Shown: piece after piece, positions 36,825 through 44,779 of the stretch
Position numbering within the stretch: the first letter of the stretch is position 1
Layout of the letters: each line of letters starts with the position of its first letter
Origin: Cyanobium sp. ATX 6F1
GTDB taxonomy: Bacteria > Cyanobacteriota > Cyanobacteriia > PCC-6307 > Cyanobiaceae
Length of the DNA: 64,000 nt
Direction: 5' to 3'
Assembly: GCF_024346315.1 (NCBI RefSeq)
Contig: NZ_JAGQCS010000004.1
Location: 248,001 to 312,000 of the forward strand
Notes under the pieces: model-generated
The model's database searches: none
What the model saw: the letters and a program-made list of their open reading frames with translations, nothing else
Told to the model about the DNA's origin: nothing
Program-made: the position numbers and the translations under genes

Positions 36825-37253
36825 TCAGCGCAGCGGAGCCTCCGCCCGCAGCCCTGAAAAGCGCTGAAAATCCCGGTCGCAGCTCGCCAGCCGGGCCCCC
36901 TGCTCCAGGGCGATGGCGGCCAGATGGGCATCGGAGCTGAGGTTGGCGGCGGTGCCGCTGGCGCTCAGAAGCTGGCGCAGCAAGGGCCAGTGGTGCGGGC
37001 CCGGTTGCACCAGGCGGCTCACCGGCCGCTCCAGCCAGCCGTCGATCAGCGCCAGGGCTTCGTCCACCTCCAGCGGCCGATCGAACACCCGCTGGCTGGT
37101 GCTGATGCGCAGGAAGGCGAGCAGCACCAGCCAGGTCCAGCCCACCGCTTCGTCTCCGGAGAGGGTCGCTTCCAACCAGTGCCGCGCCGGTCCATGTTGG
37201 GGCGCGTCCTGGTTCACGGCGTAGAGCAGCACGTTGGCGTCGGGGATGATCAC
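36825..37253 (-). CDS. vapC: VapC-like PIN-domain ribonuclease toxin
   Basis: A 142 aa PIN nuclease, the toxin of a type II pair with the antitoxin just upstream. The first catalytic Asp is in IIPDANVLLYAVN; the second acidic cluster is NLSSDAHLAAIALEQGARL followed by SCDRDFQRFSGLR. The element WLVLLAFLRIST is typical of this VapC subfamily. Start: GTG at 37253, matching the family N-terminus; longer versions running into the antitoxin gene are unlikely. It lies 43 bases after the antitoxin stop. Confidence 0.85.
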   Translation of the reverse strand: MIIPDANVLLYAVNQDAPQHGPARHWLEATLSGDEAVGWTWLVLLAFLRISTSQRVFDRPLEVDEALALIDGWLERPVSRLVQPGPHHWPLLRQLLSASGTAANLSSDAHLAAIALEQGARLASCDRDFQRFSGLRAEAPLR

Positions 37254-41903: not shown

Positions 41904-42257
41904 CTACCCCCCCGCCTGCTTGGGCCGGAAGCCCTCCTGCTCCAGCAGTGCCAAGGCCGCGGCCAGCTGGTCGCCCTGGAGTTCAATTACCCCGTCTTTG
42001 AGCGTGCCGCCGCTGCCGGCGCGCGCCTTGAGGGCCTTGAGCAGGGCTTTGGCCTCCCCGTCGCCCAGGTCGAGGCCGGTGATCACGGTCACGGTCTTGC
42101 CCCCCTTGCCCGCCTTGGTGCGCTGCACGCGCACCCGTTGCTGGGCCCGGGGCAGGGGGTCCGTTCCCCCCTGCCCCGGCCGCTGCAGGCTCTCGGCCCG
42201 GCTGAATTCCTGCCAGCCTCCCTTGCCCATGGCGAACGTCCCCGTTAGTTGAGCCAT
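41904..42257 (-). CDS. SUI1/eIF1-type translation factor
   Basis: 117 aa. After MAQLTGTFAMGKGGWQEF and a Pro/Gln-rich spacer, the SUI1 domain reads RVRVQRTKAGKGGKTVTVI, then LDLGDGEAKALLKALKARAG and GGTLKDGVIELQGDQ. Bacterial SUI1 proteins (E. coli YciH) bind the small ribosomal subunit; their physiological role is less defined than for eIF1. ATG at 42257 (a GTG sits just before it). A relic of its first codons lies at 43610-43657, beyond the mannosyltransferase gene. Confidence 0.88.
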   Translation of the reverse strand: MAQLTGTFAMGKGGWQEFSRAESLQRPGQGGTDPLPRAQQRVRVQRTKAGKGGKTVTVITGLDLGDGEAKALLKALKARAGSGGTLKDGVIELQGDQLAAALALLEQEGFRPKQAGG

Positions 42258-42271
42258 CACAGCGCAGCAGG

Positions 42272-43525
42272 TCAGCCGATCCAGAGGCCATGGGCCAGCC
42301 GCAGGGCATAGAGCACCAGCTGCAGCGTTCCGAAGCCGAGCAGGAATCCCAGCCAGCGGGGATGCCGCTGGAGTTGGGCGCCGTAGAGCATCAGCAGGGG
42401 CGCCGTGGCGAAGACATGCCGCTCCAGGCTCATCGTGTTCTGTTTCATCAGGTAGAGGAGCAGGCTGGCGGCCGCGAAGCCCCAGAGCTCCAGAGGAAGC
42501 TCTCGGCGGCCCCGCAGAAGCAGCAGAACCGCACCCACCACCACCATCAGGTTGAGGGCGGACATGCCACCCACCAGCCAGGCCCCCACAAACGCCACCA
42601 GGGAGAGCGCGAAGCCGGTCTTGGGGCGCCCATGGCGCAGCAGGAAGGCGATCCCCCCCAGTAGCACCGTGATCGTCATCAGGACCGGATGGAGGAGTTT
42701 CAGCGGGGCGGAGGGCCCTCCCTTCGTGGTTCCAAAGAACACCTTCGTCAGATCTTTTGCCCAGTAGGAGAGGCCGGAAATGTTGAGCCCCGGCTGGTTA
42801 CCCCAGGCCTTCTGGGCATGGAGGAAGGCCAGGGGGTCACCGCGCAGGTGCAGGCCGATCCAGGCCACCGCCGCCAACCCCCCCAGGCCCGCCAGGGCCA
42901 CCGCCAGGCCGGCGCCCAGGCGGCGCTGGCGGGCATAGGCGAGCAGGATCGGTACCACGATGGCCACGCCGTTCGGACGCGAGGCCGCGCAGAGTGCGGC
43001 GATCGGCGCCAACCGCACCGAAGGGATCGGATCCCTTCCCAGCCAGGTGAGCGAGAGGGTACTGAAGAGCAGGAAGAACGATTCCGTGTAGGGCAGGGAG
43101 AAGAAGATGCTGAGCGGATTCAGGCAGGTGAGCAGCACCGTGGCGCGGGCGGCCTCGGCTCCCAGCCAGCGTTCACTGAGACGGTGCAGCAGTGCCAGGG
43201 CTACCAGGAAGGCCCCGTTCGACAGCAGCAGAGCCACCACCAGCGGCGGCAGCGGCAGCAGATCGCTCACCAGCCGGACCGCGGCCGGAAACGCTGGGAA
43301 AAAAGCCAGGTTGTTGTCTGCGTAACCCTCAAGGGCGATCCGCAGATAGTGGGCTCCGTCCCATGACGAGAGTCGTTCGGCGAGCTGGCCCGGTGCCGTG
43401 ACCGTCACCGCGAGGGCGAGGGATCCGAAGAACAGCAGCCGGCTTCCCAGCCAACTGAACACCACCAGGGGCAAAAAGAAGGGTCTGGCGCCTGGATGTC
43501 CGGGACCGGGGGGATCAGGCGACAC
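42272..43525 (-). CDS. PIG-V-like membrane mannosyltransferase / glycosyltransferase
   Basis: 417 aa, about eleven hydrophobic helices. The first loop has LSSWDGAHYLRIALEGY, with the catalytic acidic residue (WDGxHY) of the GPI mannosyltransferase II / PIG-V family, followed by FFPAFPAAVRL, LNPLSIFFSLPYTESFFLL and ASRPNGVAIV. It likely transfers a sugar from a polyprenyl-phosphate donor at the outer face of the plasma membrane. The GTG start at 43525 lies within a perfect 14-base hairpin stem. The gene sits between SUI1 and a relic of SUI1, which suggests insertion. It runs into SUI1 with 11 bases between. Confidence 0.82.
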   Translation of the reverse strand: MSPDPPGPGHPGARPFFLPLVVFSWLGSRLLFFGSLALAVTVTAPGQLAERLSSWDGAHYLRIALEGYADNNLAFFPAFPAAVRLVSDLLPLPPLVVALLLSNGAFLVALALLHRLSERWLGAEAARATVLLTCLNPLSIFFSLPYTESFFLLFSTLSLTWLGRDPIPSVRLAPIAALCAASRPNGVAIVVPILLAYARQRRLGAGLAVALAGLGGLAAVAWIGLHLRGDPLAFLHAQKAWGNQPGLNISGLSYWAKDLTKVFFGTTKGGPSAPLKLLHPVLMTITVLLGGIAFLLRHGRPKTGFALSLVAFVGAWLVGGMSALNLMVVVGAVLLLLRGRRELPLELWGFAAASLLLYLMKQNTMSLERHVFATAPLLMLYGAQLQRHPRWLGFLLGFGTLQLVLYALRLAHGLWIG

Positions 43526-43551
43526 GGGCTCAAGAGCGTGTCGCCTGATCC
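43512..43551 (-). promoter_or_regulatory. Perfect 14-base inverted repeat over the mannosyltransferase start codon
   Basis: GGATCAGGCGACAC at 43512-43525 and GTGTCGCCTGATCC at 43538-43551 are exact reverse complements with a 12-base loop. In the mRNA the second arm contains the GTG start and the next three codons. A stem of this strength would hide the start from ribosomes. Confidence 0.7.
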
Positions 43552-43609
43552 TGGCAGTGCCGGCAGGAGTTCCGGTTCAACGTCGCAGCAGTTGGCCGGT
43601 GCTGTCCTC

Positions 43610-43657
43610 TCAGCCGCCCTTGCCCATGGCGAAGGTCCCCGCTACTTCTGCAATCAC
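43610..43657 (-). pseudogene. Relic of the 5' end of the SUI1 gene
   Basis: On the minus strand this reads VIAEVAGTFAMGKGG then TGA, against (V)MAQLTGTFAMGKGGW in the intact gene at 42257. The start ATG is changed to ATT and TGG to TGA. DNA identity over about 57 bases (42214-42270 versus 43611-43667) is roughly 80-85 percent by eye. Confidence 0.7.
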
Positions 43658-43931
43658 TGCGCAGCAACAGTCTGTGGATCTCCCACCCGTGCAAGTCGAG
43701 ATGGTGCGGGTGGCGCTGCCGGGCCGCCAGGAGCCACCCGCCTGCCGTCAGCCACCCTCCCCCGACCAGGAGGTGCTGATCGGCTCGCTGGCCGGGGTGC
43801 CGCTCTGCCAGGCCAAGCGCATCAAGGTGCCGATGCCGGCGGGTTGGCCCGTGACCCCACCGCCGCCGCTGCCGTCAGCGAAATCCGCCGCCAACAAGCG
43901 CCCAGCCAAGGCCCCCGCAAGCAGCCATTGA
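43626..43931 (+). CDS. Doubtful hypothetical reading frame
   Basis: 101 codons from an ATG at 43626, Pro/Ala-rich, ending in a basic tail (SAKSAANKRPAKAPASSH). It contains the phrase QVEMVRVALPGRQEPPA and two cysteines. Its first 11 codons lie antisense to the SUI1 relic, so at least its start is fortuitous. The remaining 43658-44008 stretch holds nothing else I recognise. Confidence 0.25.
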   Translation: MAKVPATSAITAQQQSVDLPPVQVEMVRVALPGRQEPPACRQPPSPDQEVLIGSLAGVPLCQAKRIKVPMPAGWPVTPPPPLPSAKSAANKRPAKAPASSH

Positions 43932-44008
43932 ACTTGGCGGCTCCTGTTGCCGAGCGTCAGCTGAACTCCTCACCCTGGCTGATGCGCCCTGCTGCGGCCG
44001 TCATCGGC

Positions 44009-44779
44009 TCAGGTCCGGGCTGCCGGGGCCAGGCTTTCCCAGGGAAAACGTGGGAGGTGGTACAGAGCCTCCCGCTGGGCCTTGCTCCAGGTCTCGATCA
44101 TCTCGGAGAGTTCAGGTGCATCGGCCTCGAACCTGAGTTGGTGCGAAATCGCCCGACTTCCCGCTGGAATGACCACCAGCTCGAACGGTGGCCCCACGCT
44201 GAGATTGGAGCGCTGGGTGAGCACTTCTGAGATCAGGCAGAGCCGGGCGGCATCTTCGAGCGAAAGGTTGGTGTGGCCCACATTGTCGAGCGGGGGTTTG
44301 CCATATTTACTCTCTCCAATCTGAAGATAAGGCGTTTCGCGCGTCGCCATGATGGCGTTGCCCTCGGAGTAGATGAGAAACAGCCCATGGGACTCGCTGC
44401 CGATCTGCCCACCGAGGATAAAAGAAGCTCCGCCACTGGCTCCAGACCCGCGCAGGGCGGCTTCGTTCTCTTTCTGAACGGCCACATTCACGCGGCCGAT
44501 ATAGGCCGCCGCTTCGAAGAGATGGTCGCAATGACGCAAATCCTTGCCTGACCCTGCCTCCAGATCCGCGTCACGGTCCAGATCCCGGCGGATCCAGTTG
44601 ATCACCGCCTGGGTGGTGGCCAGGCTTCCCGCCGCCAGCAGCACGAACAGCCGATCAGGACCTGGCTGGAACACATGCATCTTGCTGTAGCTGGAGATGT
44701 AGTCCACCCCCGCATTGGTGCGGGAATCGGAGACCAACACCAGCCCCTGCTCCAGCCAATAACCGATGCAATAGGTCAT
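44009..44779 (-). CDS. Anbu (proteasome-like) peptidase
   Basis: 256 aa Ntn-hydrolase related to HslV and proteasome beta subunits. MTYCIGYWLEQGLVLVSDSR followed by TNAGVDYISSYSKM is the Anbu signature; Thr2 after Met removal is the nucleophile, with Asp18 and a Lys in SKMHVF completing the site. SGGASFILGGQIG matches the C-terminal part of the fold. Anbu genes usually sit with an alpha-E protein, a circularly permuted ATP-grasp and a transglutaminase; none is next to this copy. It is divergent from trpB with 81 bases between starts. Confidence 0.88.
   Translation of the reverse strand: MTYCIGYWLEQGLVLVSDSRTNAGVDYISSYSKMHVFQPGPDRLFVLLAAGSLATTQAVINWIRRDLDRDADLEAGSGKDLRHCDHLFEAAAYIGRVNVAVQKENEAALRGSGASGGASFILGGQIGSESHGLFLIYSEGNAIMATRETPYLQIGESKYGKPPLDNVGHTNLSLEDAARLCLISEVLTQRSNLSVGPPFELVVIPAGSRAISHQLRFEADAPELSEMIETWSKAQREALYHLPRFPWESLAPAART

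Follow-up and report, generated by a model that had tools for sequence, protein, structure and literature searches.

In the stretch of Cyanobium sp. ATX 6F1 DNA analysed here (64 kb, referred to as the window), a gene on the minus strand encodes a PIG-V-like mannosyltransferase of 417 amino acids (42272-43525; Pfam PF04188, Mannosyl_trans2/PIG-V) with a predicted GTG start at 43525-43523, and a perfect inverted repeat covers this start. Upstream of it, on the plus strand, lies a small gene in divergent orientation that matches no Pfam family (43674-43931), which is partly kept in the sibling genome Cyanobium sp. Morenito 9A2 and whose start, read from the alignment, is an in-frame GTG at 43674 in ATX 6F1, TTG in the sibling and ATG (of the ATG-GAT type) in several relatives. 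A protein encoded at 44009-44779, between trpB and the mannosyltransferase, matches Proteasome (PF00227) weakly, with a score below the cutoff, and is 67% identical in the sibling. A 62-bp direct repeat flanks the mannosyltransferase on both sides (42208-42269 and 43605-43666, the copies 84% identical); no third match to it was found in the ATX 6F1 genome at E <= 0.1. In the first copy the repeat comprises the upstream region and start of an intact sui1 gene on the minus strand (Pfam SUI1). The second, on the same strand, is a relic of such a region and start: it has an ATG at 43627 and reads ATG GGC AAG GGC GGC TGA from there, with the stop at codon 6. In several genomes of the family in which a mannosyltransferase beside sui1 was not found, sui1 is preceded by the same words, TGCGCTGTGATGG followed by ATGGGCAAGGG, and is divergent to trpB. 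In the family members L042, L045, L046 and L048 the mannosyltransferase likewise lies between trpB and sui1. The sibling retains the relic (77% identity over a longer match) and has little of the repeat at its own sui1 start. On the simplest reading, the mannosyltransferase would have come to lie between sui1 and the old sui1 upstream region, with that stretch duplicated, and the relic region could supply the mannosyltransferase promoter.

Comparison of the two arms of the inverted repeat, GGATCAGGCGACACG (43551-43537, minus strand) and CGTGTCGCCTGATCC (43526-43512, minus strand), showed that they pair perfectly along 15 bp and enclose a 10-nt loop (43527-43536). The first-pass annotation had described a perfect stem of 14 bp with a 12-nt loop; the perfection of the pairing held, the dimensions did not. 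When the arms are taken as 27 nt, their complementarity is 81%, and in the fold predicted by RNAfold a CTC and a GAG inside the loop pair with each other as well. The 3' arm holds the predicted start GTG, the three following codons and two further bases, and the coordinates thus agree with the earlier placement of the start codon and its three neighbours in the 3' arm of the mRNA stem. The hairpin at the predicted mannosyltransferase start is real and unusually perfect.

As RNA, a 46-nt segment with the stem has a predicted energy of -29.7 kcal/mol (z -7.75), which was equalled by 0 of 200 shuffled sequences, and in a 101-nt context its z-score is -4.33. With an assumed transcript start at 43650, the bases of GTG 43525 were unpaired with a probability of 0.011 or less in the predicted fold, and with an assumed start inside the loop the same codon was largely open (unpaired 0.47-0.67). 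The GTG is therefore predicted to be closed if the stem is present in the mRNA. A scan of 43350-44100 for Sigma-70-like promoters found none and supported no start site. The in-frame GTG codons 21 and 22 (43460-43465, minus strand), both of which are also present in the sibling, are alternative starts, and initiation there would put the stem in the leader. Sequence comparison points in both directions: in most homologues an ATG stands some 24-36 residues ahead of a conserved Trp (nearer to it in L043 and L044), which would speak for the longer form beginning at GTG 43525, and the spacer-like evolution of codons 1-22 together with the retention of GTG 21/22 in the sibling would speak against this upstream GTG. 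Among the publications listed on cyanobacterial start-codon hairpins (10 of 33), which brought up the hsp17 thermometer, none treats this mannosyltransferase in its title or the opening of its abstract.

A second copy of the stem was not found in ATX 6F1 at E <= 0.001, the site itself being the sole match, and a dispersed palindromic repeat is ruled out by this single copy; across 60 genomes searched at E <= 1 the matches were short pieces, with the exception of the orthologous site in the sibling. The length and GC-richness of the stem would also suit a transcription terminator or pause hairpin. We regard this as scarcely credible: the stem sits at a gene start, a T-run is absent on both strands, and a terminator-like scan of 43350-44100, which allowed only loops of 3-8 nt, does not list it. 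An intrinsic terminator was rejected on the missing T-run and the scan list.

Comparison within the genus was made with the sibling as the sole other genome, one that matches Cyanobium sp. Morenito 9A2 identically over the locus compared. All 40 nt of arms and loop align to it with 0 gaps, so that no piece was inserted at this position, and this contradicts the proposal of a scar left by an inverted duplication during insertion. Only 10/15 pairs are kept in the sibling, with one compensatory pair (changed on both sides) against five broken ones, which is what the suggested search for compensatory changes in relatives yielded; with the longer 27-nt arms, 16/27 pairs are kept. The arms differ between the two genomes at 3/15 positions on one side and 4/15 on the other (7/30 in total), to be compared with 39/123 sites in the neighbouring spacer, 17/51 in codons 6-22 and 121/1185 in codons 23-417, and the arms diverge at nearly the rate of the spacer. 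Over codons 1-22 the mannosyltransferase differs from the sibling at 33% of sites, versus 10% over codons 23-417, and a double constraint on the codons within the stem, as put forward in the first-pass annotation, was not seen. The fold of the sibling sequence is not better than that of its shuffles (z +1.33 in 101 nt and +0.48 in 49 nt). When seven random changes were introduced into the perfect stem, at least 10 pairs remained in 28% of trials; the pairs remaining in the sibling therefore need no selection.

The same comparison bears on a DNA operator, i.e. a protein binding the palindrome between the small gene on the plus strand and the mannosyltransferase on the minus strand. The site does lie in a divergent region (gene starts at 43674 and 43525, respectively), yet an operator is very improbable: in the sibling the arms have diverged nearly like spacer with 10/15 pairs left, the palindrome occurs once in the genome, and it overlaps a coding start. 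Usual operators are, moreover, shorter than two 15-bp arms with a 10-bp gap, which we count against this reading. With the few pairs kept, the single compensatory pair and the shuffle-like fold of the sibling, the sequence comparison does not support a conserved RNA switch any more than a conserved operator.

Of 400 family genomes searched, 18 contain the gene at E <= 1e-20, counting ATX 6F1 and the sibling. Near the gene start of the 16 further homologues a perfect arm of at least 8 bp is absent except in L043, where a 9-bp perfect arm is located elsewhere upstream of the gene; the search is approximate where the tblastn match to a homologue started late (e.g. L050-L052), as gene-start anchors were extrapolated there. 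The stem is absent from the relatives compared, and the conservation of structure that would mark a start-codon riboregulator was not found.

We consider unlikely an RNA control element limited to this lineage, in which the stem would keep the GTG closed until released by temperature, a protein, a small RNA or unfolding by the ribosome. Its case is the very stable fold predicted over the start codon, with the GTG almost fully closed in a leader from 43650, and the precedent of the cyanobacterial hsp17 thermometer (PMC4477652), where a single hairpin at the gene's 5' end likewise holds the start codon in its stem. Against it stand the imperfect stem of the sibling, its absence from the 16 further homologues, and 0 Rfam matches at gathering score in the window. 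The likeness to hsp17 is also incomplete: the ATX 6F1 stem is perfect over 15 bp without an internal bulge, no ribosome binding site is seen in it, it is not conserved, and the mannosyltransferase is not a heat-shock gene; a thermometer like that of hsp17 is probably far less rigid than such a GC-rich stem. Another comparison is with static mRNA structures that reduce translation initiation, which the ATX 6F1 stem resembles in its predicted position over the start codon and from which it differs in that transcript and start codon are predictions from sequence.

To judge how surprising the stem is, we used an order-4 Markov null trained on the ATX 6F1 genome only (400 sequences, each of 64 kb, 25.6 Mb in all). 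Under this null, hairpins with perfectly paired arms of 15 bp or more and a loop of 3-30 nt number 0.015 in 64 kb and ~0.7 in a genome of 2.96 Mb, so that a 15-bp stem is surprising at one given gene and about one per genome is nevertheless expected by chance. Chance alone is thus almost sufficient. As a full account, however, pure chance without a special mutational mechanism is improbable: both genomes contain more long perfect hairpins than the null predicts, and the sibling carries an inverted repeat with imperfect arms at the corresponding site. For arms of at least 13 bp, ATX 6F1 has 6 in 555,370 nt versus ~1.4 expected and the sibling has 10 in 381,954 nt versus ~1.0 expected, both expectations being drawn from the null trained on ATX 6F1.

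Syntenic stretches of the two genomes yielded 17 perfect inverted repeats (arms of at least 10 bp) from ATX 6F1 and 32 from the sibling, from which 3/17 and 17/32, respectively, were left out for want of a usable match in the stretches compared. Among the 14 and 15 compared, 1/14 and 1/15 are perfect in the other genome, and these are the same single site viewed from each side; 27/29 comparable perfect hairpins are imperfect in the counterpart genome. Individual examples include a hairpin with a perfect 13-bp stem early in the sui1 coding region, next to the mannosyltransferase (42147-42179), which is imperfect and gapped in the sibling, and a perfect 16-bp hairpin of ATX 6F1 (L063:15277-15315) that is not kept in the sibling. 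An inverted repeat at 37092-37134, whose perfect 13-bp arms enclose a 17-nt loop, is unmatched in the sibling stretches compared, as is a perfect 16-bp hairpin of the sibling (L082:18136-18171) in ATX 6F1. One sibling hairpin with 14-bp arms (L086:2442-2477) has an unchanged arm, and every change falls in the other, the footprint expected from template switching between arms.

Template switching that perfects imperfect palindromes has been described in E. coli (PMC7202029) and proposed for RNA hairpins (PMC8794818). The mannosyltransferase stem resembles such quasipalindrome mutations (Ripley model) in that the inverted repeat is imperfect in the sibling and perfect in ATX 6F1, at the same place and without gaps. 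It differs from them in that ATX 6F1 and the sibling differ in both arms: the one-arm footprint was looked for at this stem and is absent (3 + 4 changes). Two genomes do not tell which way the change went, and a perfect stem may just as well have been lost in the sibling.

Taken together, we favour the reading, to which we give odds of about two in three, that an inherited imperfect palindrome became perfect in this lineage, possibly via replication template switching, and that it exerts at most a fixed damping of translation. The starting material would have been an inverted repeat, present in imperfect form in the genus, within a fast-changing stretch of leader and N-terminal codons. Ordinary mutation would then have perfected the stem, possibly helped by replication template switching between the arms (quasipalindrome correction), a route and direction that we infer. 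If transcription comes from upstream, for example from the relic at 43605-43666, the stem over the GTG may act as a fixed brake on translation; alternatively, translation would begin at the conserved GTG codons 21/22. With a perfected palindrome, the exact position of the stem over the start codon is a coincidence. A bolder variant would make the locus a young, species-specific riboregulator, in which the gene, having landed behind a copied sui1 upstream region, acquired a perfect start-codon hairpin, mutated from the palindrome, that throttles or gates it; we hold this to be improbable.

For the reading of such loci, the perfected palindrome implies that even a very striking stem over a start codon can be confined to one genome and transient, and that an RNA switch is poorly supported by a perfect and stable stem with nothing else in its favour. 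That two sister genomes each have more long perfect hairpins than expected, and do not share them, suggests a fast turnover of such stems in these cyanobacteria.
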